From positions 115,648,609-115,712,608 of the forward strand of contig CM077151.1 of NCBI GenBank assembly GCA_039583875.1: a stretch of DNA of 64,000 bases, given 5' to 3'. The translations under genes and the position numbers were made by a program. This DNA is from Platanthera guangdongensis (Eukaryota > Streptophyta > Magnoliopsida > Asparagales > Orchidaceae). Below are positions 10,757 to 58,096 of the stretch, in pieces. Under the pieces are notes generated by a model. That model did not search any database and was not told where the DNA came from. It saw only the letters and a list, made by a program, of their open reading frames with translations. The first letter of the stretch is position 1. Every line of letters starts with the position of its first letter.

Positions 10757-10954
10757 TGTTGGGTCCATTGCCCATAATGTCCTAGATTTGAAGAAGTCAA
10801 TCATGTCAATGATAAACATAAAGTTGTATTTGATGTGTGCTTAAGTTCATGCATACAGGTTATCCTTGAAACATTGATAGGGCAGGTATTCTAAGTGATT
10901 GGACATATGGACACAAAGATAGATGGAGGACAGGCAAGAATTTGCCAAAGTCCA

Positions 10955-12060
10955 AAGACGTTGAGTGAAGCTTACTCACTCAACGCCAGGTATAGGAATT
11001 TGGTTAAGTCCACAGACATTGAGTGAAGTCAACACACTCAACGCCAGATATAAGGGAATATGCTGGATAGGCTGGAAATCGCTTAAGTCCATTGGAATTG
11101 AGTGAATTATACTCACTCAATGCCAGGCAAGTAAAAGCGTTGAGTATATCTTGGTTTGTCTATGCCAAACTATTGGCTAGAAAGCAATGTGGCTAAGTCG
11201 ACATACGTTGAGTGTAGTCTACTCACTCAATGCCATAAAACAGAAAGCTGTGAGATAGTTTGAGGTAGTCAAAGCCTAAGCATAAATTGGCTGAAATGTG
11301 GCTAAGTCCACAGGCATTGAGTGAAGTCTACTCACTCAATGCCATAACATAAAAATCGTTAGGTATTTCTCAATTAGTCAAAGCCACATAAAAACTGTTT
11401 AAATATTTGACTAAGTCCACATGCGTTGAGTGAAACTTACTCACTCAACGCCATGTGATAAAAACGTTTACTGAACCTTTGTCAGTTAGAGTTTTTGATT
11501 TCACAAAAATTTGGCTAAGTCCAAATGCATTAAGTGTAATTTACTCACTCAATGCCAGATAATAGAAGAATATCTGTTAAGTAGTTTGGTGTTGAGTGAT
11601 GAAGGCTCACTCAATACTCTCAACGCCTAGTAACAGAAAGTTTGGCCAAGGAAAATGCATTGAGTGATGAAGACACAATCAATGCTCGATCTCAACGCCT
11701 AGTAACAGAAAGTTTGGCTAAGGCAAAAAGCATTGAGTGATGAAGACACACTCAATGCTCTCAATGCCAGAGAAGCAGGACTATTTTCTAAGGTAAAAAG
11801 CATGGAGTGGACTGTGTGCTCTCAACGCCTAAAGACAGATAGTGTTGAGTGGACTCAACACTCTCAACGGCTAATTATAGAAATTTTTCTAAGTATTTTG
11901 GCATTGAGTGAAGGTTGATCACTCAACGCCTAGTGACAGAATGATTAGCTAAGGACAAAAGCCTTGAGTGATGCTTGTTCACTCAATGCTTGAGATAGAT
12001 AGAAATCTATCCAAGTGTTTTGGCATTGAGTGAAGCTTACTCACTCAATGCATATACTAA
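10955..12060 (+). repeat. Array of TTGAGTGA/TCACTCAA inverted repeats in LTR B
   Basis: About a dozen units of 60-90 bp each contain a hairpin of the form GCGTTGAGTGA, 4-7 nt loop, TCACTCAACGC. Some units have CATTGAG paired with CTCAATG and others CGTTGAG paired with CTCAACG, so the A/G difference is matched on the opposite arm in many units. Units are linked by sequences such as GGCTAAGTCCAC. Confidence 0.9.
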
Positions 12061-12686
12061 AGTTGTTTGATTTTGGCCAAGTCCATGGATGGTGATGTCA
12101 GCAAAGTCAACAAAGTGAACTGTATTCATCTTAAGTGTGGGAAAGCTAAAGAACATGACAAACACCGTTGAAAGTCTACGATTTATTCCGTTAAAGCAAG
12201 ATGCATCTGTCAGTTGCAGGTGGTCCCCACAAGCTTCCTAGAGCCGTTATTCGGCAGAAGATAAAAGGGACAACTCCTGGAAGTTGAATGCAACTTTTAG
12301 GGTTTTATCCAAGACGAAAAAGTGGTTGGACTTCATCTTCTTCGCCATTGCTGCCGAGAAAAATCTTGAAGCCTTCCAGCAGAACAAAAAGTTCAATTAG
12401 CTATTGCACTTTTCTTCTGCTACAGCAAGACCAGAATGACTTCTGATAAAGAAAGAAAGGAGAGCCTTCAGTCTTTTACGTTTTCAATTAGCTGAATGCA
12501 GATATCAAGACCTAGATGTTCTTCCGTCTTCTTCAGCAAGTTCAAAATTTATATTCTGAGATTCTTCCAGCATAGGCAAAACTTCTTCCTGCTGCTGTGC
12601 AGAAAGATAGAGCTGAGATAACTCAGCCCTAATTATTGACACAGAGAAATATCTATGTGTCAAATTAATTAAACCACTATTTTTTG

Positions 12687-13135
12687 TAGGATCCTTTTGG
12701 ATCTGAGCTATTTGGCCTTTGTCTTGAGGTAGGGCAAAATTGCCTTAGCTGTAGGAGAGTTATACTCTCTGAGTGTAGGATCCAGTTTGGATCTAAGGTA
12801 GGTGATCATTTGATCACTGAGCTGTAGGGATTTTGAGCTTGAGGTAGGTGAGTCATTCTCACTGAGTTGTAGGGCACTTTTGCCTGAGATGTAGGATCCT
12901 TTGGATCTGAGGTAGGGCTTAATATCCTGAGGTAGGAGAGTCATTCTCTTTAAGGTAGGATTCTTTGTGGATCAGAGGTAGGGCTGTCCTCCCAGAATGA
13001 TTTGTAGTGCCTTTGGCCTATGGTAGGTATCTGCTGATCACTGAGTTATAGGGCACTTATGCCTGAGCTGTAAGTCTTGGAGGAGACTGAGAGATCCCGA
13101 GGGATCTGAGGTGTATGCTCTTTGAGTTGAGTTTT
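12687..13135 (+). repeat. Mini-hairpin chain in the transcribed LTR of B
   Basis: About 17 units share the frame TAGG...CTGAG, and most enclose a perfect short inverted repeat that differs from unit to unit. Stem pairs include GATCC/GGATC, GGCA/TGCC, GAGAGT/ACTCTC, GATCCA/TGGATC, GTGATC/GATCAC, GTGAG/CTCAC, AGTCT/AGACT and AGATCCC/GGGATCT. Loops are 3-6 nt. A few units (near 12917 and 12975) are degenerate. Confidence 0.9.
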
Positions 13136-13380
13136 GGAGAAGTGCCTTATCTAACTGAAAGTTAGAAAGGTGGGAGGAGAGTGGATGTATCCATAATCTG
13201 GGGACCACTATAATTTCTATGTGTGTTTTCTGTATTATTTTCCTTTTGCAGGTCCTTGAAAGCTAATAACTGCCAACACACTAAGTAACTAAAAAAGAAA
13301 CTAAAAGAAAGTCACAAGACATCAATAAACCTATTCATCCCCCTCAAGGTTGCAAGCTATCTTGAAAACAATGACTTTCA

Positions 13381-14100
13381 ACAGTATGCGGCAAGTTTGC
13401 CCATACCTTATTCGATATGGGGGCATAAGCAAACTTCGTCGCAGAAGATTTTTTCAAAGACTTGGACCAGATCCAACACTATACGGGAGTCACCAGGAGG
13501 GTGCATCTTTCTGATGGGACGAAGATGCTATCTACTACAAAATGACTTCTAAGGGTGACCATCGACGACCTAACACTCTAGGCTCCAACGATGATCTTGA
13601 AGATGCCTTACTTTGTTCTTTTCTTGAGAATGACATAGCTCACCTGGAACTATGCACAGATCTATTGCCCGACGATGAAGGTCATGCTGAGATACGACAA
13701 CACCTACGCAACCTTCGAATGTACTTTCCCAGTCTTCCGCTATTTGCTTTCTTCTATCCAGTACATCAAGGCCCACCTGTAGGGGAATGAGGTTTATCAG
13801 ATGTTATTCAAGATGATCGAGGAAAAGAACTCTATCTCCAACATCCCGATGGTATGAGATTTCGTTGATGTTTTCACAAAGAAGCTGTCAGGGCTGCCAC
13901 CGTAGCGTGAGAAGGACTTTCAGATCCAGCTAGTGCCATGGGCTAAGCCGGTATCTAGGGAAGCATATCAGATGGCCCCAAAGGAGCTAGTGGAACTCCA
14001 GAGTCAGCTATAGGAGTTAGTTGAAGCTTGGTTTGTCAGACCAAGATCCATGCTTGGGGGAGCCCCATTATTATTTGTAAAGAAGAATAATAAGACTCTC
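13381..14100 (+). pseudogene. pol: Old Ty3/gypsy protease-RT fragment (K)
   Basis: Protease-like sequence at the start reads TLFDMGA, a stop, then NFVAEDFF, which matches the gypsy protease motif LFD-S/T-GA with later decay. From ~13855 the RT start is recognisable: DFVDVFTKKLSGLPP, then LVPWAKPVSREAYQMAPKEL and GGAPLLFVKKNNKTL. The linker between has collapsed, with stops in every frame. The fragment is cut on the left by the LTR of B and on the right by element D. The RT phrases resemble those of the intact element E, but the sequence is far more diverged. Confidence 0.75.
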
Positions 14101-14671
14101 AAATTATCCTTCCATAGTTTGGGCTCTTAATGCATGCCTTGATCTTCTCAAAAAGCATCATTCCCCACTGGAATTTCTTTCTACAAATGACTCTTGTCAT
14201 TAAATCAAAAAATTCTGGAGTAATATAACTTATAGAACTTATTTTGCACAAAAGCACTTTTCCTAGGATATCAGCCAATAACTTACTTTTAGCATTCATA
14301 TATTGTCTTCTGATTGTGTGATAGGATTGAGGAATACCACAGAAACTATATGCTCACTCATAGGCTGAGCCTATTAGATCATCTTCCATATCTATTATTG
14401 GGAGTTGCAGAAGTTGAGAAACAGACAGAGCAAACATTTTTACCTTGATATTCTGAACTTTAGACTTGATGATTTTGCCATTCCTCTTAACCTTGGCATT
14501 CTGGAAGAATTCTTCAACTTCATAAGCTAGAATCTGGCATGGATGTTCAAGAATAAAGGACAACCCGTCTGTATCTAGCAGAAGAAGAACATTCTTGAAA
14601 TCATCTGATATCTCTGCAATCTCGGTAGAACTGAGTTCAATCCCGATCCCTAGCTTTGAAGACGAAGCCAT
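14100..14671 (-). pseudogene. 3' ORF (ORF3) of copia element D, truncated
   Basis: Starts at ATG 14671 (MASSSKLGIGIEL). EVEEFFQNAKVKRNG and VKMFALSVSQLLQLP align by eye with EVLEFLSRAKIDETG and VKVSPKSLRKILQLP in ORF3 of element C. A stop falls near 14354-14356. The second part (14099-14299) has LLADILGKVLLCK and SPNYGRII, which are the next conserved blocks of the family. The frame then runs into the unrelated gypsy fragment K. The gene sits downstream of pol after a CTCGAG array, as ORF3 does in C after its own array. Confidence 0.75.
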
Positions 14672-14934: not shown

Positions 14935-15172
14935 CCACCAGATTTCTCGAGAGGACAGATTATTCTCGAGAAGAATGTTATCAGCACTCGAGTATAAGAG
15001 TCCTTGGTCTCGAGTAGAATGAGCCTTATTCTCGAGTAGAATACTCCTTGTTCTCGAGTAGAGTACTTCTTCTCGAGAAATTGTTTCTCTGTACTCGATA
15101 CATGATATTGCTGTTCTCGAGAGGCAAGTCTGCAATTCTCGAGTACAAGAGTTGTACTCGAGAAATGAAGTC
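14935..15172 (-). repeat. CTCGAG palindrome array between pol and ORF3 of D
   Basis: About ten copies of CTCGAG within TTCTCGAGAA, ACTCGAGTA or TTCTCGAGTAG lie within 240 bp. The same palindrome fills the LTR of D (21640-22282). CTCGAGAAGAAGG also occurs just upstream of the ORF3 start, near 14763. Confidence 0.9.
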
Positions 15173-20979: not shown

Positions 20980-21152
20980 AGCAAAGCACTAGACTCGGGT
21001 ACTCCACTAATCTCGGATTGAAAACAATCCTACACCTTGGAACAACGTTCCTATAACTCGATCTGAAAACAGAATCTACACTCAGAAGATAAAACTCCCT
21101 GGAAGAACTCAGAGAATACAACTCCTACAACTCGGAGAAAGATCTCCTACAA
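20980..21152 (-). repeat. Mini-hairpin chain in the LTR of D
   Basis: On the minus strand, units open with TAGG or TAG and close with CGAG or CTGAG. Stems include GGATTG/CAATCC (loop TTTT), GGAAC/GTTCC (loop GTT), GGAG/CTCC and CTAG/CTAG, plus an imperfect GATTCTG/CAGATC. This is the same design as in B, C and F, with different stems. Confidence 0.85.
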
Positions 21153-21639
21153 GAATAAAATGAAATAACAAATTCAAACAGTGATTTGATCTCAGATCTG
21201 AAATACTTCTGCCTGTTCTTCTTTGTTTGAACTTTGCAGCTTTATCAAAAAATGTTGAAGAAGAATCGGTAATTTCTACGATCTGAAAATCTCTGGACTC
21301 ACACGATCAAGTAGAAGATCTGTCGTTTGAAAAGAATCTTGTTCTGTGAATCAACTTCTCTAAATTGATCTGGATCGAAAGCGCTTTGGCGATGAAGACG
21401 ATGAATGGTGGATCTCGATTTAGAAAGTAATGTCAGATTCAAAAATCTTGGAATTACTTCTTGCGGCGGCTTGTAATTCTTCTTATTTCTTCTTAGGGTT
21501 GATCAAAAATGACAAGACCTTATATAGGATTACCCTAATGGTCATAGTCATCATTAATGACATCCACGTGGACCAATCACGGGTTAATGATACTTGAAAT
21601 ACACGTCTGTCTGGACTTCGAAGTTTTCAGAGAAATAGA

Positions 21640-22282
21640 CCGGGTGTTCTCGAGAAGAAGATTTTTACTCGAGAACAAATGAATTCTGTTCACGAGAACA
21701 AAAAAGAAGTTCTCGAGAAGAAGACTTAGAGAAAAAGAGTGTGGAGGGAGAAAACAATAATCTCGGGAATGAAGGAAAGTACTTAAGAAAAATAGTGTAT
21801 AGTTCTCGAGAAGAAATATTTTGTACTCGAGAACCAAAGGCTGTCTCGAGAAAAATTACTTAGAAAAATATGTGGAGGTGGAAATCTTCATTCTCGAGAA
21901 TCATAGAAGTACTCGAGAAAAATGACGTTTTGTTCTCGAGAAGAACCATTCTGGTACTCGAGAACATATAGTCATCTCTAGAACAAATATCTAGCTCTCG
22001 AGAAAAATACTCTGGTTCTCGATAAATGACTTCTACATCTCAAAAACAAAAGATAGCCTTCTCGAGAATAATTTTATTCTTCTTGAGAAAAAGACTTAGA
22101 AAATATATGTCTAGAAAAGAAACATCTCGAGAAGAAATGTCATATAGTACACAAGAATAAAAGCCCTTCTCCAGAACAACATAAAGCTTTCTCGAGAACA
22201 ACTTCTGCCACTCGAAATTAAGACAAGTCTTACTCGAGAAATATCATAAGTCCTTCTCAAGTACAAATATAGTACTCGAGAA
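21640..22282 (-). repeat. CTCGAG palindrome array in the LTR of D
   Basis: Roughly twenty copies of CTCGAG, mostly within TTCTCGAGAA, with decayed versions such as CTCTAGAA, CTTGAGAA and CTCAAGTA, lie at 15-40 bp spacing in the U3 part of the LTR. Confidence 0.9.
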
Positions 22283-22606
22283 AAGACTTAGACTTTTTCT
22301 GAAAAACTAAAAATCTTGATTCTTCATAAAAATCTGCATCTATCTTTTCTTTTTCCCTTAGTGCTTGAAAAGGAAGTGTGTCCCAATAGAGAGGTTATAC
22401 ATGAGTCAACACCATGGATCACACAATGAGGGATTACATTCTATGGTCCTGTGTTTGAAGACTCATTGTAGATTGACATTGGTCTACACTTAGCAATTAA
22501 GTCCTGTAAACACTTAACAAAAAGAGCATCAAATACAAACTTAATTCATCTTAGTTCAAGAGTGATTTCATAAAACTCTGGGCTATTGTGTATGCAATAC
22601 CCAACA

Positions 22607-30429: not shown

Positions 30430-30785
30430 GTAGGATCATTCAGCTTTGTGTGTAAGCTTAACTTATAAAGACTGAGTGTAGGATCTTTAAGTAGATCTGA
30501 ATTGTAGGATTCAGTTGTGAATCTGAGTGGTGGGGATTTTTGCCTGATGTAGGATCTGGATCAAATCTGAGGTAGGGGAGTAATTCTATCTGAGTTATTG
30601 GGCTATCCTCCGAGCCTAAGTGGTAGGACTTTGAGTTAAAGTATGAGGTATAGCCTGGTCAGGACTGAATGGTAAGAGATTATATATCTGAGTGGTAGGG
30701 CTTTCTGCCTGAGTTATAGGACTTGTAGGAGTCTGAGAGATCATGAGGGATCTGAGTTGTAAGCTCATTGAGCCGAGTTGGAGAA
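30430..30785 (+). repeat. Mini-hairpin chain in LTR F
   Basis: Units run from TAGG to CTGAG. Stems include AGATC-type GATCT/AGATC, GATTCA/TGAATC, GGCT/AGCC, ACTTT/AAAGT, AGAT/ATCT, GACT/AGTC, AGATC/GATCT and GCTC/GAGC. Several units are degenerate, in keeping with the older age of F. Confidence 0.8.
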
Positions 30786-31083
30786 GCTTCCTTGTATAAT
30801 AAACTATTAAAAAGGTGGGAGGGATAGTGGATGTAGCCATAATCTGGGGAACCACTATAAATCTATGTCTGTTGTCTAAGTAATCTTGAAAGCTAACTAA
30901 AATGAAATCACAACACATCAAGAATAGGGAAAATATTAAAAAGACCTAAAAACCTATTCACCCCCCATCTAGGTGTTTAGCCACTCTTAAAACTAAACAC
31001 TTTCAAGTAGTATAAGAGGGAGGTTGCTCAAAAAGTATTTAACAGTCTGAGTTGATCTCCAAGAGTAGCATAAGTTTATCTTT

Positions 31084-36665: not shown

Positions 36666-36809
36666 TGTTGGGTATATTGGTTTAAATGTACCTGATTTGA
36701 AGAAGCCTCACCCAACTCAATGATATACATCAAAATGTATTTGATGTATTTTGAGTTACTTGTGCAGGTTAAGTATTTGCAGGAATAAAGCAAAAAGTTT
36801 CTAAGTTCA

Positions 36810-37630
36810 TGTGTCGACACCCAGAGGAAACGTGTCGACACTTAAGAAGTCTTGTGTCGACACCCAGACAAGCAGTGTCGACCCTTGGAGTCATTGTGTC
36901 GACACCAGGGATGCTGAGTCGACACCAGACAGAAAGTGTCGACACAAGGAGCTGTGTCGACACTTAATGAAGAAAGTGCAGTAAAGCAGTGTCGACACTT
37001 AACATTTGTGTCGATACCCAGTGAAGCTGTGTCTACATCAGAAAGTGTCGACACTTGGAGCTGTGTCGACACTCAGCAAAAGTCAACAGAGACCAAGTAC
37101 AAGTGTTAACACTCAGAACAATGTGTCGACACTTAGCAGAAGACTCAACACTTGAAGAAAGTGTCGACACAAGGAGCTGTGTCGACACTTAGCAAAGAAC
37201 AGCAAAGTTCAACAAAATATTCCAAGTACAAGTATCGACACTATGGAAATGTGTCGACACTCAGCTGAAGTCTCGACAGAAGAAGAAAGTGTCGACACCC
37301 AGAGCAATGTGTCGACACTCAACAAGTATCAACAATAAAGACATGTGTCGACACCAAGAAGCAGTGTCGACACTTGATAGATACAACACATGAAGATGTG
37401 TCGACATAACGGTGTTGTGTCGACACTTAGAAGAATTCAGCAAAATTCTGAAGAACAAGTATTTGTGTCGACACTCAATTTCAGTGTCGACACATGAAGA
37501 AGAAGCAGTGTCGAGATAAAGAATCAACAACACAAGGAGTTGTGTCGACACCTTGTAGACTAGTGTCGACACTTAGACAACATGTGTCGACACTTGGTCT
37601 ATAAGTGTCTACACTTAAAGACAGAAAGTC
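36810..37630 (+). repeat. GTGTCGACAC palindrome array in the 5' LTR of C
   Basis: About 25 copies of the 10-bp palindrome GTGTCGACAC, plus decayed forms (GTGTCTACA, GTCTCGACA, GTGTCAACAC), lie at 15-45 bp spacing in the U3 region. The spacers share AGAAGC, AGGAGC and TTAGCA pieces. Almost the same array is in the 3' LTR (56283-57115). Confidence 0.95.
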
Positions 37631-37767
37631 TCGACACTTAAAGACAGTTACAGCATTTTCAAGAACTGACTGGATGACTTGACAGCTGCCATTCCAGCCG
37701 GTCTACAGCACCTGTCAGAGTTGTCAGAATTCAGTTATGGACCGGACCAGCCGGTTACCTTGAAGAA

Positions 37768-37783
37768 GGCCTATAAATAGGCC
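37768..37783 (+). promoter_or_regulatory. TATA box inside a palindrome, 5' LTR of C
   Basis: GGCCTATAAATAGGCC: TATAAATA (37772-37779) sits in the middle of GGCC/GGCC arms. The upstream sequence ACCGGACCAGCCGGT is also an inverted repeat. The identical arrangement occurs in the 3' LTR at 57242-57257. Confidence 0.85.
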
Positions 37784-37917
37784 TATGTTGTCTACAAAAA
37801 GAGAATCAACAAGTTGTTGAAGAGATTGAACACAAGTCCAAGTTCAGATTTAAAGAAGATCTAGCTATCAAGTCAAGATCTAAGAAGTTGGAGAGAGAGC
37901 TCCATCCAAGAAATCAG

Positions 37918-40831
37918 TGATGGTTAAAACTCCAAAATTATTTGCGGTCACGCGGCGACCCGGCGGTTTTATTTGAGAAAAAGGAGGAAATGAATTTATT
38001 TAAGAAAATGGGGCGCGCGTATTTATTTATTTATTTTGGCTATAAAAAGGTTAGGTTTAGATCGAGTTTTAACGAAAGGAGGCAAGTGCACCTATCGTGA
38101 GTAGTACAGGATATTCCGGGTGGAATATCGAGGTCGTATTGTTCTCGGGTCACGTTCGATTATTTCTACTCTTCCCTGGAGGGGACTATTATTTTACCGA
38201 TAATTATCTTGTCGGGTTATTTATATATAATAAAAAGCAGAAAATGACAGAAAGAAAATGAAAGCAATAAAAAGAAAGCTTGAAGGTGGTGCCGATGAAG
38301 AGCTTAGCTCTATGGCACCGAAAAAACAATTGAACTAAAATAAACTTTAAATAAAAAGAGCTCCTAAATTTCTAATTAATTAAGGCGGAGACTTGGCCGT
38401 GGAGGTTCCACTAAAATGAGCTCACCTAGCTATAGGGCTATCGCTCACCTGAACGCTAAGACTATTCGACCGGGCTCTCGTCCGACGAAGGATTCCTCTT
38501 AACGCCCGCATTACGCTAAGAACCCCGCTATTGGGTGGGGGACCCAATCCGGTAGAGTTGGCGCGCCTCCTCTCTCGAGGGTTAGTGCGGAACTCTCTTT
38601 GCCAAGGGGTGATCTGTCCATACGCACGGCCTCTCGGCGAGCGTATGGAAAACGGAAATAGGGCCCAGACATCGATATGTGGTCCTACGCGTCGTTAACC
38701 CCGGGCAAACCTTAAGTACTTTTAATTAATTAGAAAAATTAGACCTTCAGTTATTTTAAGCTATTTTATCTGTCCCAATGCTCTTCGATGCCGAGGGCTA
38801 AGAACTGTTAGCCACTCATCGGAATGGGGACGACAGCGATTGAAAGCAATAAAATTAAAGCAGAAAATGGAAAGCAGTAAATGAAAACAGTAAATGAAAG
38901 CGGTAAAATAAAGCAGTAAATTGCAAGTCCTACTCAAACAAGTAGGACTGAAGAAAGCTGTAAATTGCGAGTCCCGGCGCAACTGCGTGGGCGGGAGAAA
39001 TGAAAGCAGTAAAACGCACACACGCAAGTCCTACTCAAAGGAGTAGGAGAAAATAACTACAGGTCCTACTCAACCGAGTAGGACAAAATAAATGCAACGC
39101 ACGCACACTCTCTCTCGACATAAATGAAAACACACGCACTCTACTGAAATAAAAACCAGTCATTAAACTCAAGTGAGTAGGCGGAAAAAAGGAAAATTAC
39201 AAACTCACGCACTCTACAGAAAGTAAAATAAGCGAGCGTCATTTAACTCTTAACGAGTAGGCGGAAATAAATGCGGATACATAAAAAATTGCAAAAAAAA
39301 CTAAGTTGACGAAAAATTAAAACAACTGCATTTCTACCGCTAAAATGCGGTAGAAATGCATAAAAAGCGAAAATAAAAATTAAACGGGAAGAAAGTTTTT
39401 GCAAATAAATGCAAAAATGCAAGTGATCGAAAAATTAAAACGAATACATTTCTACCGCTAGAATGCGGTAGAAATGCATAAAAAGGGAACGAAAAATTAA
39501 AAGAACAAAAAGATTTTGGAAAATAAAGGAAAAATGCAAGTGTTTGGAAAAACAAAATAACAACATATCCCCTCTTATAATGCTATAAAAACTCCTAAAA
39601 AGTGGAAGAAAAGATAAAAGGACGAAAAATTCTACAAAACTAAAAAGTCTAAGTGAAACGAAAATGACAAAACCACTTTAAAATCGTTTTTATAGTTTCA
39701 TAAGGACGGGTGTTACAACAAAAACTAAATAGCTATTATGAAAATGAAGACATCTACTTAACAATAAAAAGAAGAAATAACATGTTACTCTCATACACAC
39801 ACACACGTATAAAAAAAACGAAAAAAAACTAAGTTAAAAACAAGAAAATAAAGATAAGATTGCATGGAGGTAGTTGTTTAGATTCATTCCAAAGCTATAA
39901 TGAGAGAAGAAAAACAAATTTTATTAACTAAAAGCACTGGTTACAAAGACACGAAAATAAAACCTAAGGAGAGGGGGAGAAAATATCCCTTACATAGCAT
40001 TTGGAACTCATCCGAGCAGCATAACTCCTTACAAAATGGATCCAAAAACTGGAACAGAAATCCAGAGCAGAAGACTGGAATTTATAGAAAAAATTTACAT
40101 GGGTCACGCCCTTGGTCACGGGCGTGACAGGGGGCGTGACAGTACTATTTGAGAAGGCGGCCGGCGATTTGACGGGAAAGTGGACTTCGGGCTGGACACG
40201 TGGCGGTCTCGCAGTGGTCACGCCCTTGGTCACGGGCGTGACAGGGGGCGTGACAGTACGGTGGATCTGGGCGCGGTGCGTCAAAAAGTCGCCGCGCGGG
40301 TCTTGTCGGGCTAGCTGGAAAGGTCACGCCCCAGGTCACGGGCGTGACTCTGGGCGTGTCGGCTGCTGTCGACACTCGACGATCGTCGAGATGAAAGTGT
40401 CGAGTTGAAAATCGTCGAGCGGAAAGAGGTGTCACGCCCTAGGTCACGGGCGTGACTCTAGGCGTGTCGGCTGGTTTCGACGATCGTTGAGCTGAAAACG
40501 TCGAGCGGGTGGACACGGGCTTGGGTCACGCCCCGTGTCGGGTGACACGGGCGTGACCCCGGGCGTGTCGGGCTTTGCACTTCAAATTTTGCTGATTTCA
40601 CGGTTTTTGACGTGTCACGCCCTGGTCACGGGCGTGACCAATATGTCACGGGCGTGACATGTCAAATTTTGGCAGATTTTTGATTTTTTCTGAAAAATAA
40701 AATAAACAAAGTTAGTATAATATTTACAAAAATAGGAGCAGTTTATTGAATAAAAATAAGTAAAAATGACAAAAATAAATGAAAACAACTAAATTAATGT
40801 ACACATAAATAGGTATATTTACAATTCATCA
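37918..40831 (-). repeat. 3' LTR of element G
   Basis: Non-coding, with several perfect hairpins: TCCTACTC/GAGTAGGA type near 38928-39083, and GCATTTCTACCGC/GCGGTAGAAATGC (39328-39359), with a second copy at 39447-39476. A GTCACGCCC/GGGCGTGAC array (40097-40660) lies near what is the U3 end on the minus strand. Small ORFs such as 39964-40435 arise from this array and are not genes. Confidence 0.9.
40097..40660 (-). repeat. GTCACGCCC/GGGCGTGAC inverted-repeat array in G
   Basis: About seven blocks read GGTCACGCCC, 2-5 nt, GGTCACGGGCGTGAC, then GGGCGTGAC or GGGCGTGTC. Short TCGACGATCGTCGA-type palindromes are interspersed near 40376-40420. The array is CpG-rich in an otherwise AT-rich element. 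The other LTR carries the same array at 45361-45920. Confidence 0.9.
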
Positions 40832-43175
40832 AATACCCCCATACTTAAGCTTTTGCTATTCCAGAGCAAAAGTTGGAGATGAACTTATAAGGAATAAAAG
40901 AAATCCTAAGTTTAGCTACCGCTTGACTTAATTAAAAGGAAGATCAAAATAAACATCCGGGGTTAAAGAATTAAATCCTAATTTATGAATTGTTATGAAT
41001 AGAGGAACAGTTTCAAAAAGACTTCTAGATAAAATAAAATAGAAAGCAAAAATTTATTTTTGTTAGTTTAACAAAGATGGATTGGATTTATATAAAAAAC
41101 TTTAGCTTAAAAGAAGTTAAACGAAATAATGCAATTTAAAAGTTATGCTCTCAAAAAATTTTAAATTAATTCTAGAATCATTGAAATGAGATAAGTGGTT
41201 TGGTGGTTTATGAAGAAGGTTTGAATATTGAGGTGAGGTAATTTTTTCTCGAACCTCCAATTTTTTTCTTTTTGGATAGTTAGGAAAACGAAATCTTATT
41301 TTCCTAACACATTAATTTTTTTCTTTCTTCATAATAAAATTAACCCAATGTATATTTGTAGAAGTAATGAATTTTATCCTCTTACTCCATATATAATCTT
41401 TTTAAATTATTGGGTGCCTATGTTTACGGAATGAAATCTTATTCCCATTAACATAAGATCTTTTAAGGGATAGGGGTAAACATGTCAAGTAAGACATGAA
41501 AAAAATGGAAGTGGGTTGATTTTTTTTTTTTTTTCAAAAAGAAAACTAGATTTTAATAAAAAAGATTTGAGAGCAACCTTTTTAAAATGAACGTTCCAAT
41601 GTTTCTAAAAGCATGAAGTAAAAATAATTGAAATCCATGGATGTTATTTTCTAACATAAAAAACGAGCTTCTATTTATAAAATTAGAAGTGGTGGTGAAA
41701 AACAAGTTCCCTACTATAAGGAAAAGACATAAAAAATTTTTTAAGACTTAACCCCAGACACTTAAATCTATCGAACTTTAATTAATAAACGAATAGTAAG
41801 CAAAGAATAACTAAAATTCGCATATAAATTAACTCGAAACTAGATTTTTGGAAAGCAAAAGGGGTTAAGATAAGGTATATTCGAATTATTTTGTTACATA
41901 ATTTAACAAAACATTTTTTGGAATTTTTAGAGTTTTTATCATTTTTTTGTGTTTTAATTATTATCTTTTTAAGATTTTTAGAGTTATTATCTTTTTTTAG
42001 GATTTTTGGTTTTCTAATTTTTTTTATTTTTAGAGTGTTTTGAGGATACATTATTTACAAGAAAGAGGAGAAAAAGAAGAGTTATTTACAAAGAAGGTAG
42101 GGGGAAAGAGAGATTTTTACAAAAAAGACAAAGTAAAAACTCGACTGCGGCCCCGCGAACAGACTCTTATTTGAATGGTTGGTTCGATGAGTCGACCGTC
42201 GCGGGCAAGCAAGACGCAAGTTTTTACAAAAAAGAAGACGAGGGGGGAAGAGAGATTTTTTTTTTTTTTTTTTTTTTTGAAGTTTTTTTTTGTTTTAATT
42301 AAAAATTTTTTGAAATTTTTTGATTTTTGCATTTTTTTTTGTATATTTGTTTTTGTTAAGTACTGAATATAAAAAGTGCAGAATAGGAAAACACCCCCAT
42401 ACTTAAACCCAACATTGTCCGCAATGTTGCAATCTAAGTATGCGGAACAGATAATATACAAAATATAATAAGTACAAAAAACAAAAACAGAGAGGGTAGA
42501 AGCTTCCCTAAGACGAGTCCGGGAGGCCCAAGTTGAAACCCTGCATTATTTAAAAGAAAAAGCAAAAAGATAACAGAAAAAACAAAAAAGATAAACTCGG
42601 CCTAAAGATCGCGGGCGGTAGGGGGGAATGTGCGTGGGGGAGTCGGAGGGAGCTAAGCCCGTAGCGACCACTGTGTGATAAAAATGTGATCCCCTAGCGC
42701 GCACAAAAGTGAAAAGCGCGCCGAATCAAAATAAAATATAATAAGTTAAATTAAAATAAAAATATATATTTTTTAAGTTTTTCATTTTTTAGTTTTTAAG
42801 TTTTTTTTGTTGTTTTTTTTTCAAAAACAAGAATGAAAATAGAAAATAAAAATATTTTTTTGTTAAGTTTTTTTTTTTCATTTTTTGGATTTTTAGTTTT
42901 TTTTTTTAGTTTAGTTTTTTTTTTACTTTTATAGTTTTTTCAAATTTTTAATTTTTAAGGTTTTTCAAAAAAAAATTTTTTTTTGTTTTGAGTTTTTCAC
43001 TTTTTTTTGGTTTTATAAATTTGTAAATATATATATATTAGTTATTATTATTATTATTATTATTATATTGGCCATATTTATATATATATATATATAAATA
43101 TATAGGTAAAATTAATAGATTTCCAGGGTTTAAAATAACGAACCGAAAATGTCCCCGGCAACGGCGCCAAAAACT
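40832..43175 (-). other. Internal non-coding region of G
   Basis: No coding sequence. Long T/A runs are frequent (for example 41520-41536, 42257-42280, 42750-43020). The polypurine tract on the minus strand is at 40832-40848 (CTTAAGTATGGGGGTATT), next to the 3' LTR. A second near-copy (GTTTAAGTATGGGGGTGT) lies at 42391-42410. The primer site is at 43153-43169. Confidence 0.8.
43153..43169 (-). promoter_or_regulatory. Primer binding site of G (tRNA-Asp)
   Basis: The minus strand reads TGGCGCCGTTGCCGGGG, the complement of the 3' end of plant tRNA-Asp. It is six bases from the LTR end. Confidence 0.85.
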
Positions 43176-46091
43176 TGATGGTTAAAACTCCAAAATTATT
43201 TGCGGTCACGCGGCGACCCGGCGGTTTTATTTGAGAAAAAGGAGGAAATGAATTTATTTAAGAAAACAGGGCGCGCGTATTTATTTATTTATTTTGGCTA
43301 TAAAAAGGTTAGGTTTAGATCGAGTTTTAACGAAAGGAGGCAAGTGCACCTATCGTGAGTAGTACAGGATATTCCGGGTGGAATATCGAGGTCGTATTGT
43401 TCTCGGGTCCCGTTCGATTATTTCTACTCTTCCCTGGAGGGGACTATTATTTTACCGATAATTATCTTGTCGGGTTATTTATATATAATAAAAAGCAGAA
43501 AATGACAGAAAGAAAATGAAAGCAATAAAAAGAAAGCTTGAAGGTGGTGCCGATGAAGAGCTTAGCTCGATGGCACCGAAAAAACAATTGAACTAAAATA
43601 AACTTTAAATAAAAAGAGCTCCTAAATTTCTAATTAATTAAGGCGGAGACTTGGCCGTGGAGGTTCCACTAAAATGAGCTCACCTAGCTATAGGGCTATC
43701 GCTCACCTGAACGCTAAGACTATTCGACCGGGCTCTCGTCCGACGAAGGATTCCTCTTAACGCCCGCATTACGCTAAGAACCCCGCTATTGGGTGGGGGA
43801 CCCAATCCGGTAGAGTTGGCGCGCCTCCTCTCTCGAGGGTTAGTGCGGAACTCTCTTTGCCAAGGGGTGATCTGTCCATACGCACGGCCTCTCGGCGAGC
43901 GTATGGAAAACGGAAATAGGGCCCACACATCGATATGTGGTCCTACGCGTCGTTAACCCCGGGCAAACCTTAAGTACTTTTAATTAATTAGAAAAATTAG
44001 ACCTTTAGTTATTTTAAGCTATTTTATCTGTCCCAATGCTCTTCGATGCCGAGGGCTAAGAACTGTTAGCCACTCATCGGAATGGGGACGGCAGCGATTG
44101 AAAGCAATAAAATTAAAGCAGAAAATGGAAAGCAGTAAATGAAAACAGTAAATGAAAGCGGTAAAATAAAGCAGTAAATTGCAAGTCCTACTCAAACGAG
44201 TAGGACTGAAGAAAGTTGTAAATTGCGAGTCCCGGCGCAACTGCGTGGGCGGGAGAAATGAAAGCAGTAAAACGCACACACGCAAGTCCTACTCAAAGGA
44301 GTAGGAGAAAATAACTACAGGTCCTACTCAACCGAGTAGGACAAAATAAATGCAACGCACGCACACTCTCTCTCGACATAAATGAAAACACACGCACTCT
44401 ACTGAAATAAAAACCAGCCATTAAACTCAAGTGAGTAGGCGGAAAAAAGGAAAATTACAAACTCACGCACTCTACAGAAAGTAAAATAAGCGAGCGCCAT
44501 TTAACTCTTAACGAGTAGGCGGAAATAAATGCGGATACATAAAAAATTGCAAAAAAAACTAAGTTGACGAAAAATTAAAACAACTGCATTTCTACCACTA
44601 AAATGCGGTAGAAATGCATAAAAAGCGAAAATAAAAATTAAACGGGAAGAAAGTTTTTGCAAATAAATGCAAAAATGCAAGTGATCGAAAAATTAAAACG
44701 AATACATTTCTACCGCTAGAATGCGGTAGAAATGCATAAAAAGGGAACGAAAAAATTAAAAGAACAAAAAGATTTTGGAAAATAAAGGAAAAATGCAAGT
44801 GTTTGGAAAAACAAAATAACAACATATCCCCTCTTATAATGCTATAAAAACTCCTAAAAAGTGGAAGAAAAGATAAAAGGACAAAAAATTCTACAAAACT
44901 AAAAAGTCTAAGTGAAACGAAAATGACAAAACCACTTTAAAATCGTTTTTATAGTTTCATAAGGACGGGTGTTACAACAAAAACTAAATAGCTATTATGA
45001 AAATGAAGACATCTACTTAACAATAAAAAGAAGAAATAACATGTTACTCTCATACACACACACACACGTATAAAAAAAACGAAAAAAACTAAGTTAAAAA
45101 CAAGAAAATAAAGATAAGATTGCATGGAGGTTGTTGTTTAGATTCATTCCAAAGCTATAATGAGAGAAGAAAAACAAATTTTATTAACTAAAAGCACTGG
45201 TTACAAAGACACGAAAATAAAACCTAAGGAGAGGGGGAGAAAATATCCCTTACATAGCATTTGGAACTCATCCGAGCAGCATAACTCCTTACAAAATGGA
45301 TCCAAAAAGTGGAACAGAAATCCAGAGCAGAAGACTGGAATTTATAGAAAAAATTTACATGGGTCACGCCCTTGGTCACGGGCGTGACAGGGGGCGTGAC
45401 AGTACTATTTGAGAAGGCGGGCGGCGATTTGACGGGAAAGTGGACTTCGGGCTGGACACGTGGCGGTCTCGCAGTGGTCACGCCCTTGGTCACGGGCGTG
45501 ACAGGGGGCGTGACAGTACGGTGGATCTGGGCGCGGTGCGTCAAAAAGTCGCCGCGCGGGTCTTGTCGGGCTAGCTGGAAAGGTCACGCCCCAGGTCACG
45601 GGCGTGACTCTGGGCGTGTCGGCTGCTGTCGACACTCGACGATCGTCGAGACGAAAGTGTCGAGTTGAAAATCGTCGAGCGGAAAGAGGTGTCACGCCCT
45701 AGGTCACGGGCGTGACTCTAGGCGTGTCGGCTGGTTTCGACGATCGTTGAGCTGAAAACGTCGAGCGGGTGGACACGGGCTTGGGTCACGCCCCGTGTCG
45801 GGTGACACGGGCGTGACCCCGGGCGTGTCGGGCTTTGCACTTCAAATTTTGCTGATTTCACGGTTTTTGACGTGTCACGCCCTGGTCACGGGCGTGACCA
45901 ATATGTCACGGGCGTGACATGTCAAATTTTGGCAGATTTTTGATTTTTTCTGAAAAATAAAATAAACAAAGTTAGTATAATATTTACAAAAATAGGAGCA
46001 GTTTATTGAATAAAAATAAGTAAAAATGACAAAAATAAATGAAAACAACTAAATTAATGTACACATAAATAGGTATATTTACAATTCATCA
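43176..46091 (-). repeat. 5' LTR of element G
   Basis: Near-identical copy of 37918-40831, with scattered single-base differences (for example in the first hairpin, where TACCGC has become TACCAC). It adjoins the tRNA-Asp primer site, so on the minus strand it is the upstream LTR. Confidence 0.9.
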
Positions 46092-46335
46092 ATCAGCCAT
46101 TGGAACTAGGCTGAGAAGAAGGGTTCAGATTTATTCTGGATCTTAAGAAGCAGAGATCAAGGATCAACTGCAGAAGGAGTCAGTCTTATTGAGTTCTACT
46201 TTCAAGAAGATTTGAAGAAAGCTAAGTCAGATTGATTCCAGCTGAGTTCTTCCAAGAACTCATCAAGAAACTCACAACTCCCCTCTCTTGTCTTTAGGTT
46301 GCTGAGTTAACAATTGTTTAATCATTTTTATCTTG

Positions 46336-46550
46336 TAGGATCCTTTGGATCTGAGTTTTGTAAGCCTATAATTATAAAGACTGAGTGTAGGGATTGAGAG
46401 CCTGAGTGTAGGAGATTGAAATCTCTGAGTGTAGGCCTTGGTGGCTGAGTGTAGGCCTTTGTGGCTGAGTGTAGGCTTTGTGGAAAAGCTGAGTTGTAGG
46501 GGCTTGGGCCTGAGGTGTAGGAACCAGTTTGGGTTCTGAGATAGTGGAGG
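46336..46550 (+). repeat. Mini-hairpin chain, 5' LTR of C
   Basis: Same nine units as in the 3' LTR (57633-57842). Three units have a substitution that weakens the stem relative to the 3' copy: AGCCT/AGACT for AGCCT/AGGCT, GGAT for GGCT, and GGGGC for GGGCC. Confidence 0.9.
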
Positions 46551-46802
46551 AGTTTGGCCGAATCTAGTACACTACTAGATAGGCGAAGGGGGAAAGTGGA
46601 TGTACCCAAAGCTTGGGGAACCACTATAAAACTCTGTGTCTACTGTGTGATTGTTGTTGGCTGTGATTGTTGCATATGTGCTGTGTTATAGTAGATAGAA
46701 TTCTGTGAAATTAACTGATTGCTGCCATAAAAAGTTAAAAAGAATTAGGTCACCTATTCACCCCCCCCCCCCTCTAGGTGTTTAGGTACTATATCTTTCA
46801 AG

Positions 46803-46814
46803 TGGTATCAGAGC
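46803..46814 (+). promoter_or_regulatory. Primer binding site of C
   Basis: TGGTATCAGAGC, complementary to initiator methionine tRNA, two bases after the LTR end. Confidence 0.95.
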
Positions 46815-52149: not shown

Positions 52150-52490
52150 AAAGGTGTCGACACATAGAGATATCTGTGTCGACACAGAAAGTAGGTGTCG
52201 ACACTTCAGGAAAAAGGTGTCGACACATCTAGAAAGTTAGTGTCGACACTTCAGAATATTAGTGTCGACACATGACAAGTTGGTGTCGACACAACCAAAG
52301 TGGTGTCGACACTTAAGTTTTACTCAGAATTTTCTAAGTAAGGTCTCGACTATGTGTCGAGTTGTGTGGTGTCGACACATAAACAAGTGTCGACACATAA
52401 AAACTATTGACTAAACTTGTGTCGACATATATGTGTCGAGACATTATAAGTCAGTGTCGACACTTATTGCCAGTGTCGACACAATTTAAG
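52150..52490 (+). repeat. GTGTCGACAC array between pol and ORF3 of C
   Basis: About thirteen copies of GTGTCGACAC or one-base variants, starting right after the pol stop, plus one more near 52590 just before ORF3. The motif is the same as in the LTRs of C. Confidence 0.95.
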
Positions 52491-52633
52491 TTAGCTGTCC
52501 CGCCTGTTCATCTTCAAAATTAGAAAGGTATAAATAGGGTTTTGCCTTAGTTTGTCGACACGCTTTCAAAGTTTCGAGACCAAACTTCTGTGTCGACACC
52601 TCTCTTCTCTCAAGACAAATTCTACAAACCCTA

Positions 52634-55600
52634 ATGGCACCTAAGCTGGAAGAGAACGTCAACGAAGGATACGAGCTGGTACGCGGTGCTTTCAATGATG
52701 CTAATTAAGAAATCCAGACTGTCGTAACCCTAGTAGTCTATTCAGGATTAGAATATCTTGTTTCTGAACCTACTAAAATCTGGAAGAAAGAGGTACTAGA
52801 ATTTCTTAGTAGAGCAAAGATAGACGAAACTGGATTCAAAATCAAATCCAGGGTTCATGGTGAGAAGGTGAAGGTGTCACCTAAAAGTCTGAGGAAGATT
52901 CTACAGCTGCCAAGAATTAAAGAGGAAGATGAGGTTACAGCTACAAAGACCAGGGAAGCTCTAACCTGGTGTGGACTGGATCCTAAGATGAAGCTTGGAT
53001 CAGTGTTTCTTAGAAAAGGCATGAACAATCAAGGGAAATTCCTCTCAGAGATTGTTGGCAAAGTCATACTCAGCAAGCCAGGAGGGCATGACAGAGTGTC
53101 TGCCCATATGTTTAGCATAATGACAAGGATAATCTTCACTCTAAAAACTGACTGGTATATGGTAGTTTATGAGAAGATTAAAGAAAGCTTGAAGAAGCCC
53201 AACCTGGGCAGGATTTTAAGTCTTTACCTTGCTGGTGTAATACCTGAAGTTATGAGTACAGCTGCTGGAAGCAAAATAAATCATATGAGAAAAATGGACA
53301 TGAGGTTGTTCTCTAGATGGGACAGGGTGTTGACTAAGGAGATGCCAACCGCTGAGAAGATAGTTTCTGAGAAGGAGATTCCATTAAAGAAGAAAAGGAA
53401 GACTGCTCTAGTGGCACAATAGTCCACTAGCAGCTCTGAAAGTGAAGAGCATGTTGTCTTCTCATCTGATGAGAATGTAGAAGAGCCAGCAGTAAAATCT
53501 CCTGCTCCTCAAGATGATGCTGAGATCCAGGGGGAGCTACCTCAAGCTAGCCCCATACACAAGGATCAAAGCTAGGGGGAGCTTCCAGTTGTAGATGAAC
53601 CCACTACACTAGAAAGTGAACAAGCAACAAACATTATCCTAGAGGTAATCACTGAACTCAATACTTTAGAATTTCCTATGGAAGATACTGATTTGTCTGA
53701 TGTTCATCAGCAAACTCAGCTGGATAACCAAGTCCCAGATGCTGTCTTGGAAGACACATCTGTTGCAGCTCCAATAGTTCCTGATTCAGTGGTTGAAGAG
53801 CCAAGACTTTCTCCTGCTCATTCTCAACAAGAATACACCATGGAAGATTTATTTCTAAATCTAGATCAAGAAGATTTTGATAAGGAAACTGCTGCTGAAG
53901 AGGAGAATGCTCCAGTTCAGGGGGAGCAAGTGCACATTCATGAAGTCCCTGCAAGACAGGAAACTGAGAAGGCACAAGATGTGCAGATGGAAAGGCCCCC
54001 AAGCCCTAAGGAGAGGGTGGATATAGCCAGCTCCTCAGCTTCTGAAGATGAGGAGGCTACCAGGGCTAAGAAGCAGAAACTTTATGTATTCAAAAGAAGG
54101 AGTCAAAGTTATAAGAAGGCTCTACAATCTATTGCACCACTGCCTATAGTTCAGCAAATACCATCAGTTGATTATAGTGCATTGATGGTTGCTATGCAGA
54201 TCAAGTTGGATGAGCACAGAAAGGCAGTAGAGAAGTATGTGGATGAAGGGCAGAAATCATTGCAATTTGATCTGGCCCATGATATTAAATCCATAAGATT
54301 TGAGATGAATCTTAACAAGAAGGAGATGACAGACTGCTTTCACAAAGGGGGAATGCAGTGGTGTACTTAGCTACACACCAAGAAAAGATTAAGGCTCAAG
54401 TTGATGACATAGCCCTGAAGCAAGGATATGTACTTGAAAATCAACTTAGAATGAATGACAATTTGACAGAATCTCATAATGCAATTGTCACAGAACTAAA
54501 GAACATAGCTGCTGGACCTTCTATCTCTACTGCTACTGTTAAAGCTGAATTTGACAAGGTATTTCAAGAAGAAATCAATGCTGTTAAGACTGCTATTCAA
54601 GACTCCCAGAAGGCCATATCTGAACAACTTAAAAAGCTCAAACCTTTCTTTAAATATGGAGTCAGATACTTGGATAATCAAATCAGATTCCAGAAGGATG
54701 ATGTCAGAGATCACATGGCTAGAGAAGTCATAAAGGGGGAGAGAGTTTTAGTCAAAGCTGGCTCTGATCATGCCAAATGGATATATAATTCCATCAGAGC
54801 TACACTGGGCTATCCTCCACTTTGTGATGATGACAATGTTGCTGAATCTGGAATTCAGCCTGCCTATTTAGGAGGGGAGCAACCAGAAGTGGCTCAAGTT
54901 ATCTATCCTCCTCCAGATTTTGAAATGGTGCAAGCTGACATTCATCACATGTATAGCCCAACTGAAGGGAAGTCTAATGTCATTCTGGAAAAAGTGGTTC
55001 AGCCTATATCTGAACCACTTTTTCAAGAATGACATTAGACTTCCCATCAGTTGGGCTATACATGTGATGAATATCAGCTTGCACCATTTCAAAATCTGGA
55101 GTAGGATAGATAACTTGAGCCACTTCTAGTTGCTCCCCTCCTAAATAGGCAGGCTGAATTCCAGATTCAACAACATTATCATCATCACAAAGTGGAGGAT
55201 AGCCCAGTGTAGCTCTGATGGAATTAGATATCCATTTGGCATGATCAGAGCTAGCTTTGAAATGGTGCAAGCTGATATTCATCACATGTATAGCCCAACT
55301 GAAGGGAAGTCTAATGTCATTCTGGAAAAAGTGGTTCAGCATATATCTGAAGCTATGCAAGTAGCTCTTCAGAAAGAAGAAGAAGCTCTACAGAAAGAAG
55401 AAGAGACTAGACTTTCTAAGAAGAGGTTTAGGGAACAAGCTGAACAAAGGCCAGACTTTGAGCAGTGGAGCCCTACCTCTAGAAACATTATATTAACTGT
55501 CTGGAAAGCTGCCAAGGATAACATTCAAGACAGGAACAAATGGTTCTCTGAAACTGAATGGAGGAAACATGAATCAAGGCAGGAGGCCATAGTTCAACAT

Positions 55601-55828
55601 AGAAGGAAGGCCAAGATGGGAAAGCTACCTCCTACTGCTCTGGAGCCTAGCAAGTACTTTCCAAAGCCATACCATTACTTTGAAAGGCAGAAGATTAAAG
55701 CAGAAGAGCTTAAGAAGAAAGACTTGAAAGGCAAGATGCCTGCTGATGCTGAAGTTGCTGATGCTCCTGTTCAAGCTAAAGTTCAAGTTGACAAAGGAAT
55801 AGTGATTAAGGAGCCAGAACTGAAATAG
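52634..55828 (+). pseudogene. ORF3 of copia element C, broken by stops and a fold-back
   Basis: ATG 52634 (MAPKLEENVNEGYELV). TAA at 52706, then the conserved domain: KEVLEFLSRAKIDETG, VKVSPKSLRKILQLP, LSEIVGKVILSK, KPNLGRILSLYLAG and LFSRWDRV, about 52760-53340. Then a basic KKKRK stretch, TAG at 53420, an acidic region rich in E/D/S/P, another stop near 53571, and a basic block KKQKLYVFKRRS (54068-54100). After a frameshift at about 54358 a coiled-coil-like part follows. A 251-bp fold-back (54752-55260) disrupts the frame, which resumes at 55256 and ends IKEPELK at 55828. Function unknown; KKKRK and KKQK suggest a possible nuclear protein. Confidence 0.8.
54752..55350. repeat. Fold-back inverted duplication plus third copy in ORF3 of C
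   Basis: Arm 1 (54752-55002) and arm 2 (55010-55260) are inverted copies of 251 bp around a 7-nt loop CCTATAT, with about ten differences by eye. A third, direct partial copy of 54919-55013 follows at 55256-55350. The arm 2/third copy join shares TTTGA with the source. Confidence 0.95.
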
Positions 55829-56138: not shown

Positions 56139-58096
56139 TGTTGGGTACATTGGTTTAAATGTACCTGATTTGAAGAAGCCTCACCCAACTCAATGATATA
56201 CATCAAAATGTATTTGATGTATTTTGAGTTACTTGTGCAGGTTAAGTATTTGCAGGAATAAAGCAAAAAGTTTCTAAGTCCATGTGTCGACACCCAGAGG
56301 GAAAGTGTCGACACTTAAGAAGTCTTGTGTCGACACCCAGACAAGCAGTGTCGACACTTGGAGTCATTGTGTCGACACCAGGGATGCTGAGTCGACACCA
56401 GACAGAAAGTGTCGACACAAGGAGCTGTGTCGACACTCAATGAAGAAAGTGCAGTAAAGCAGTGTCGACACTTAACAGTTGTGTCGACACCCAGTGAAGC
56501 TGTGTCTACATCAGAAAGTGTCGACACTTGGAGCTGTGTCGACACTCAGCAAAAGTCAGCAGAGACCAAGTACAAGGGTCGACACTCAGAACAATGTGTC
56601 AACACTTAGCAGAAGAGTCAACACTTGAAAAAAGTGTCGACACAAGGAGCTGTGTCGACACTTAGCAAAGAACAGCAAAGTTCAACAAAATATTCCAAGT
56701 ACAAGTGTCGACACTATGGAAATGTGTCGACACTCAGCTGAAGTCTCGACAGAAGAAGAAAGTGTCGACACCCATAGCAATGTGTCGACACTCAACAAGT
56801 ATCAACAATAAAGACATGTGTCGACACTAAGAAGCAGTGTCGACACTTGACAGATACAACACATGAAGATGTGTCGACACAAAGGTGTTGTGTCGACACT
56901 TAGAAGAATTCAGCAAAATTCTGAAGAACAAGTACTTGTGTCGACACTCAATTTCAGTGTCGACACATGAAGAAGAAGTAGTGTCGAGATAAAGAATCAA
57001 CAACACAAGGAGTTGTGTCGACACCTTGTAGACTAGTGTCGACACTTAGAAAAACATGTGTCGACACTTGGTCTATAAGTGCCGACACTTAAAGACAGAA
57101 AGTCTCGACACTTAAAGAGAGTTACAGCATTTTCAAGAACTGACTGGATGACTTGACAGCTGCCATTCCAGCCGGTCTACAGCACCTGTCAAAGTTGTCA
57201 GAATTCAGTTATGGACCGGACCAGCCGGTTACCTTGAAGAAGGCCTATAAATAGGCCTATGCTGTCTACAAAAAGAGAATCAATAAGTTGTTGAAGAGAT
57301 TGAACACAAGTCCAAGTTCAGATTTAAAGAAGATCTAGCTATCAAGTGAAGATCTAAGAAGTTGGAGAGAGAGAGCTCCATCCAAGAAATCAGCCATTGG
57401 AACTAGGCTGAGAAGAAGGGTTCAGATTTATTCTGGATCTTAAGAAGCAGAGATCAAGGATCAACTGCAGAAGGAGTCAGTCTTATTGAGTTCTACTTTC
57501 AAGAAGCTTTGAAGAAAGCTAAGTCAGATTGATTCCAGGTGAGTTCTTCCAAGAACTCATCAAGAAACTCACAACTCCCCTCTCTTATCTTTGGGTTGCT
57601 GAGTTAACCATTGTTTAATCATTTTTATCTTGTAGGATCCTTTGGATCTGAGTTTTGTAAGCCTATAATTATAAAGGCTGAGTGTAGGGCTTGAGAGCCT
57701 GAGTGTAGGAGATTGAAATCTCTGAGTGTAGGCCTTGGTGGCTGAGTGTAGGCCTTTGTGGCTGAGTGTAGGCTTTGTGGAAAAGCTGAGTTGTAGGGCC
57801 TTGGGCCTGAGGTGTAGGAACCAGTTTGGGTTCTGAGATAGTGGAGGAGTTTGGCCGAATCTAGTACACTACTAGATAGGCGAAGGGGGAAAGTAGATGT
57901 ACCCAAAGCTTGGGGAACCACTATAAAACTCTGTGTCTACTTTGTGATTGTTGTTGGCTGTGATTGTTGCATATGTGCTGTGTTATAGTAGATAGAATTC
58001 TGTGAAATTAACTGATTGTTGCCATAAAAAGTTAAAAAGAATTAGGTCACCTATTCACCCCCCCCCCCTCTAGATGTTTAGGTACTATAGCTTTCA
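56139..58096 (+). repeat. 3' LTR of element C
   Basis: TGTTGGGTACATTGG to ATAGCTTTCA, uninterrupted, 1958 bp. Contents in order: terminal inverted repeat GGTACATT/AATGTACC, GTGTCGACAC array (56283-57115), TATA in palindrome (57242-57257), mini-hairpin chain (57633-57842), box GTGGATGTACCC-like (57892-57925; here GTAGATGTACCC), and C-tract. Confidence 0.95.
57633..57842 (+). repeat. Mini-hairpin chain, 3' LTR of C
   Basis: Nine units, mostly joined by CTGAGTGTAGG. Stems in order: GATCC/GGATC, AGCCT/AGGCT, GGCT/AGCC, GAGATT/AATCTC, GCC/GGC, GCC/GGC, GCTT/AAGC, GGCC/GGCC, GAACC/GGTTC. Loops are 2-10 nt. The chain starts about 380 nt downstream of the TATA box, so it is within the transcript leader if that box is used. 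Confidence 0.95.

Follow-up and report, generated by a model that had tools for sequence, protein, structure and literature searches.

Sireviruses are Ty1/copia elements described by a set of sequence signals in and around the LTR. According to the sections of PMC2829016 that define them, the 5' LTR ends in CA followed by ATTGG or AGTGG and the 9-nt PBS TATCAGAGC, the PPT octamer has an AT/TG attachment site and a flanking inverted repeat, a polyC integrase signal is present, and palindromic repeated motifs (RM boxes) with a CGG-CCG core lie upstream of the TATA box. Maize Sirevirus LTRs contain palindrome-rich cis-regions that have been linked with small RNAs (Bousios et al. 2016, cited in PMC10760457). 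Both the palindrome boxes of Sireviruses and an LTR structure associated with small RNAs are already known. In other systems, retroviral packaging leaders carry tandem short hairpins and unpaired G-rich motifs for Gag, and multivalent RNAs of the CsrB/RsmZ type repeat one short motif across hairpins with differing stems. To our knowledge, few studies have dealt with packaging signals and leader signals in plant retrotransposons.

Here we describe a chain of short hairpins in an LTR within a 64-kb stretch of Platanthera guangdongensis DNA (the window), together with its relatives in the source assembly (one genome of 4.25 Gb in 274 contigs). The likeness to retroviral leaders is one of possible working only: they have few hairpins with the motif in loops, whereas the chain has up to 20 with the motif between them. 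CsrB/RsmZ-type RNAs are bacterial regulators, unrelated to the chain, and also carry their motif in loops. The RM boxes are closest, being found in the same kind of element and giving many short dyad-symmetric units per LTR, but they repeat one palindrome upstream of TATA, while the chain has differing stems, asymmetric links and G.U bases and lies downstream (PMC2829016). It is not one repeated palindrome: 34 distinct left-arm triplets occur among copies of family C and 44 among those of family B, decay included. The maize cis-regions, likewise structured LTR RNA, are clusters of one palindrome, and compensating heterologous stems are not described in the account of them in PMC10760457. In the text of Bousios et al. 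2010 (PMC2829016), the words 'hairpin' and 'stem-loop' do not occur, and nine passages on palindromes, tandem or inverted repeats and secondary structure are without such a chain. The original prediction knew of no described element with this feature; no chain of compensating heterologous hairpins downstream of a promoter was found in the open-licence papers searched.

The chain is located in the 3' half of a Sirevirus-type LTR, downstream of the promoter (table 1). This LTR (2.6 kb, family B) is assigned to the Sirevirus type because its PPT-junction inverted repeat (arms at 10735 and 10787, with the variant tract AGGGGGTAT before TG) and its polyC-rich signal near the LTR end (13330) match the descriptions in PMC2829016. 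Chains of this type are present in three more LTR families of the window (C, D and E), where the polyC-rich signal is found at 30955 (C), at 46755 and 58052 (D) and, on the minus strand, at 20835 (E). Element D has TTTCA AGTGG TATCAGAGC at the end of its 5' LTR (46796-46814) and the PPT octamer GGGGGAGAT at 56130-56138, followed by TG, with inverted-repeat arms at 56116 and 56169. It was also scanned for protein domains, and three of six frames match copia-type gag/pol (PF14223, gag_pre-integrs, rve and RVT_2). The palindrome arrays of the window have cores other than CGG-CCG, namely GTGTCGACAC and TTGAGTG..CACTCAA; the published Sirevirus element Tnd-1 is likewise without the CGG-CCG core (PMC2829016).

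Table 1. Positions in the window of the hairpin chains, their LTRs and neighbouring signals.
Feature	Position	Strand	Basis or remark
Family B 3' LTR, Sirevirus-type (Ty1/copia), holding the chain	10757..13370	+	TGTTGG... start, ...ACA end, PPT-junction inverted repeat, polyC signal
Array of near-identical palindromes (TTGAGTG...CACTCAA), Sirevirus-type repeated motif upstream of promoter	11010..12070	+	sequence, tandem repeats
TATA-like box, weak	12261..12267	+	sequence
Chain of 19-20 hairpin units	12687..13135	+	link (GAG-N-UGUA or GAGGUA), base G.U + G-C, variable stem, loop
Extra hairpin directly past the chain (CTAAC...GTTAG)	13150..13166	+	innermost pair T-A in B, A-T in C
Conserved terminal hairpin-like block AGTGG...CCACT	13180..13209	+	present in families B, C, D and E
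Related short chain, family E LTR	20992..21152	-	partly closed by G-C (CCGAG), not G.U
Related chain, family C LTR	30430..30779	+	sequence, shuffle and arm-swap tests
Element D 5' LTR	about 36666-37917 + 46091-46800		split in two pieces
Related chain, element D 5' LTR	46335..46540	+	shuffle test
Element D 3' LTR	56139-58096		
Related chain, element D 3' LTR	57632..57837	+	9/9 units paired

Several other features of the window were recorded. Element D spans about 36666-58096; nested in its 5' LTR, and splitting it, is a younger element (37918-46092) whose 2.9 kb LTR copies share 99.3% identity. Inside D, a palindrome array of GTGTCGACAC at 52154-52499 precedes post-pol ORFs (52709-55828), as in envelope-bearing Sireviruses; one of the two ORFs scanned has a Pfam match, sub-threshold only (PF20167). 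The remains of a broken Ty3/gypsy-like protease and reverse transcriptase, read by eye, adjoin the B LTR at 13400-14110, and CTCGAG palindrome arrays at 21600-22300 (minus strand) and 14980-15080 belong to the LTRs of a minus-strand copia element. A scan of the whole window with Rfam 15 at gathering scores gave no match, and no tRNA was found in a tRNA scan of the same 64 kb.

The chain was found where the original prediction had placed it. Its repeated units are real, but they number 19-20, not about 17, and form a more regular chain than was claimed. The alignment of 40 copies of family B has 19 units with 110 pairs, and the segment analysis gives 19 segments, the first of which holds two hairpins, making 20 hairpins; the exact word TAGG occurs 15 times in 12600-13200. 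In the window copy, 100 of the 110 consensus pairs are formed, nine are broken and one is without a base. The prediction that most units enclose a stem was correct as to the stems, but the stemless units are mostly decay of this copy. In B, 17 of 19 units have G.U as the majority pair at the outer end of the stem and the other two have A-U; the second pair is G-C in all 19. A TATA-like box had been reported about 400 nt upstream; the site lies 426 nt before the first unit, and the chain starts 376 to 426 nt downstream of such a site in E, D and B. Taken singly, the hairpins are weak (17 of 19 segments at -5.2 to -8.8 kcal/mol). Past the chain, the terminal block is present as an exact pattern at 36 of 103 loci, and a TATAAA-like sequence and a GU-rich stretch follow it. 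This block, of the form AGTGGATGTA..CC..GGGGA(A)CCACTATAA, could pair with itself and is seen at 13180-13209, 30826-30856 and 46595-46625.

The claim that the stems differ while pairing is kept withstood three kinds of control. When unit interiors were shuffled with the end letters fixed, the inner pairing of 21 in the window B chain was reached in none of 2000 shuffles (mean 4.0); the C total was reached in 1 of 2000, and those of both D chains and of E in none. In the arm-swap test, which compares each unit's own arms with arms of different units of the same copy and requires three inner Watson-Crick pairs, own arms paired in 322/530 cases against 477/6644 swapped in B (40 copies, anchor-defined units), 156/281 against 122/2492 in C, 11/18 against 2/144 in D and 2/3 against 1/6 in E. 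Under a looser rule (pairs 2-4, G.U allowed), the D figures are 246/256 and 318/1944. Finally, hairpins detected by pairing alone reached 21.9 per kb against 9.7 in dinucleotide shuffles (maximum 19.7), and 20.9 against 8.8 in the B copies. The corresponding densities are 5.2 against 10.1 shuffled upstream of the B chain, 16.0 against 11.4 upstream of the D chain and 0 against 6.9 downstream of it.

Folding of the whole chain gave a milder result than local pairing: z -2.74, with 1 of 100 shuffles as good. A further whole-chain result is z -2.22 (4/200 as good), and the decayed 5' LTR copy of D gave z -1.17 (26/200). Of 200 interior shuffles of the D chain, 195 are less stable than the chain itself. 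With spans of up to 40 nt, pair probability exceeds 0.8 in five of the nine D hairpins and is at or below 0.19 in four; these four lose to pairings between units in the folding model, which leaves out co-transcriptional folding and bound protein. That global folds miss some local hairpins is a real weakness of the hairpin-array reading. We also asked whether pairing among the different stems of a chain is avoided. Cross pairing between units within a copy occurred at 454/3226 (0.141) in B, where the B-C and B-D rates are 0.166 and 0.125; at 184/1108 (0.166) in C, with 0.150 for C-B and 0.128 for C-D; and at 21/438 (0.048) in D (12 of 30 loci used), with 0.111 for D-B and 0.157 for D-C.

The assembly was searched with patterns that fix only ends and links. 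The CTGAG form, a two-unit pattern with the inner stems free, gave 53 011 matches against 2 for the same pattern written backwards; the CGAG form gave 2951 against 4 in its control, and a links-only pattern 3904 against 16. Several of the matches listed form same-strand pairs about 11 kb apart, the spacing expected of the two LTRs of one element. In IMG/VR, the chain pattern matched three records, all simple tandem repeats. Since pattern searches fix the links by design, freer evidence on the links comes from hairpins found by pairing alone: in the B copies, GGTA or TGTA precedes 204 of 370 and GAG follows 218 of 370. Mimicry of U1 or the 5' splice site by the link (GAG/GUAGG) was considered and dropped, because the link reads GAGUUGUAGG in many families.

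Base pairs at variable positions were tabulated for 102 distinct CTGAG units (71 distinct listed rows; the step used 35 listed CGAG-form rows, and duplicates were removed by eye, so that a few may have been missed). Pairs 3-6 are formed in 93/102, 96/102, 89/101 and 78/87 units, against 47, 42, 55 and 44 expected if the arms were independent, or 1.6 to 2.3 times expectation, and all four Watson-Crick pair types are present at pairs 3 and 4. The links-only units (n = 86), in which the letters GG and CT were not fixed, gave 80/86, 85/86, 77/86 and 70/81 against 58, 45, 53 and 37; their nearly constant pairs 1-2 are close to expectation. They include a third class of stem, GATCC...GGATC, closed by G-C. 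In 286 distinct units, a count that added further units taken as distinct, G.U outnumbers A.C by 45:17 at pairs 3-5 and by 86:23 at pairs 3-6, against 140:104 among private changes in B copies (Fisher 0.03 and 0.0001); the comparison is approximate, the units being related by ancestry and the counts not independent. The excess of G.U over A.C points to pairing of the sense-strand RNA.

Comparison of families was confined to the closest copies: 40 were scored of 7642 (B), 4360 (C), 1413 (D) and 3256 (E) first-look candidates, and 40, 30, 30 and 0 of them, respectively, were taken into the comparisons. The 40 scored D candidates are 95-100% identical, and family D is young. Between B and C, one homologous unit pair is T-A in 38 of 39 B copies and A-T in 25 of 30 C copies, the other five C copies being paired as well, and the innermost pair of the post-chain hairpin is T-A in 35 of 40 B copies and A-T in 29 of 30 C copies. 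Over 109 column pairs (40 B and 30 C copies, alternative helices included), three changed on both sides and are still paired, one of them resting on a single C copy, ten changed on one side and are still paired, and 23 changed and are unpaired. Alternative helices, not taken as unit stems, hold 21 of these 23. Of the other two, one lies on the loop side and is hardly present in C, and the second, which forms the base of the last unit, reads A-C there and is truly lost in that family.

Covariation was thus found between families, but across the copies of family B it is near chance: the 40 copies show 49 double changes, 38 of them still paired, where independent change of the two sides predicts 35.9. 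Within a family such changes carry little information, since a G-C pair deaminated twice becomes A-T and still pairs. Divergence in B is about equal in stems (7.8%), loops (8.8%), links (7.4%) and outside the chain (7.0%), which suggests that inserted copies decay neutrally and that selection is visible between families only. On the strength of the compensation between families, the four Watson-Crick pairs at variable positions and the G.U excess, we consider the chain very probably a selected RNA structure, in agreement with the structural alternative of the original prediction.

On balance we favour a modular RNA hairpin array after the Sirevirus promoter, in which both pairing and links are selected and which may serve, as its likeliest function, as a multivalent protein-binding platform. 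About 6 to 20 short hairpins would stand in a row in the part of the LTR after the promoter, each stem variable in sequence and kept by selection for pairing. The single-stranded links between them, GAG-N-UGUA, would change little and lead into a stem base of G.U or G-C. The links repeat while the stems vary, which argues for selection on link sequence and stem pairing, since duplication with homogenization would keep both alike. The array would change in size by gain and loss of whole units, the stems afterwards drifting by compensatory change; among 30 D copies, 19 have nine units, nine have eight, one has seven and one has six. Judging from its place after the TATA-like box, the array probably sits in the 5' leader (U5, or R-U5). 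AATAA is found 36-39 nt past TATA in D and E (none was seen in B or C), and an LTR study, in the part on Sire elements, infers a very short R for them (PMC3601003); U5 is favoured over R for these two reasons. The stems would then act as spacers holding many copies of one link motif open, and a protein would bind many times, for packaging or dimerization of genomic RNA. The element's own Gag is the simplest partner because the chain would lie in the leader, and we tentatively suggest a putative Gag or packaging platform. More speculatively, the array may represent a novel type of retroelement RNA: a bead-chain leader that passes on as information only its pairing and its links. Its stems would drift, the array would change by whole units and the number of links would set the strength of multivalent binding to a Gag-like or host protein.

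The array could instead be part of the RNA 3' end signal: in a long R, hairpins would gather the UGUA of the links for poly(A) site choice before the CCACTATAA block and the GU-rich stretch. UGUA, which recurs in the links, serves as an upstream element in the selection of poly(A) sites, and the TATAAA-like sequence and GU-rich stretch past the terminal block fit this as well. However, the AATAA of D and E and the short R (PMC3601003) would place the chain in U5, and the GAG half of the link is left unexplained, so we do not think this likely. Alternatively, the array, which would stand between cap and gag, may influence how the leader is translated (through the passage or entry of ribosomes, or as insulation rich in stop codons) and have no packaging role. 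Most links do contain UAG or UAA, and CTGAG contains UGA, but CCGAG units are without UGA, the leader contains AUG (by eye) and the single hairpins are weak; this role is unlikely.

A third alternative is template switching, either while DNA is replicated or when the element's reverse transcriptase meets a nascent hairpin. It would copy arm onto arm and yield pairing free of structural selection, as the original prediction also allowed. Such a mechanism has been described for RNA genes (PMC8794818) and would explain perfect stems and multi-base compensation. Pair orientation at pairs 3-6 (sums over the CTGAG table) is biased to C-G (106 against 49 G-C), a bias of the kind that arm copying with reverse polarity could leave, and is even for A-T and T-A (85 and 82). 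The account of the mechanism in PMC8794818, however, proposes G-C over C-G, the opposite of what is seen here. Copying across the base would moreover turn G.U into a Watson-Crick pair, whereas basal G.U is kept in 17/19 B units and 69/86 links-only units; G.U also exceeds A.C, as sense-RNA pairing would give, and the recurrence of the links beside stems of many sequences is left unexplained. Template switching is not needed to explain the data, and we regard it as quite improbable. We consider it very improbable that the units serve, in the manner of the repeated motifs upstream of TATA, as palindromic DNA sites for a transcription factor. Arrays of palindromes are usual in Sirevirus LTRs (PMC2829016) and occur in the window too, but the chain is downstream of TATA, its stems have no sequence in common and most of them close with G.U, a mismatch in DNA; the G.U excess over A.C also speaks against this reading. 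Chance or ordinary tandem repeats, suggested by the flanks and some stems common to units, are refuted by the shuffle, swap and backwards-pattern controls, and their probability is negligible.

The hairpin-array reading suggests that structured LTR RNA in Sireviruses extends beyond the palindrome boxes already known to precede the promoter. Because a single genome holds tens of thousands of pattern matches, spread over families that differ in age, selection on RNA structure can be read from DNA alone, and the array offers ready material for testing what binds the recurring links.
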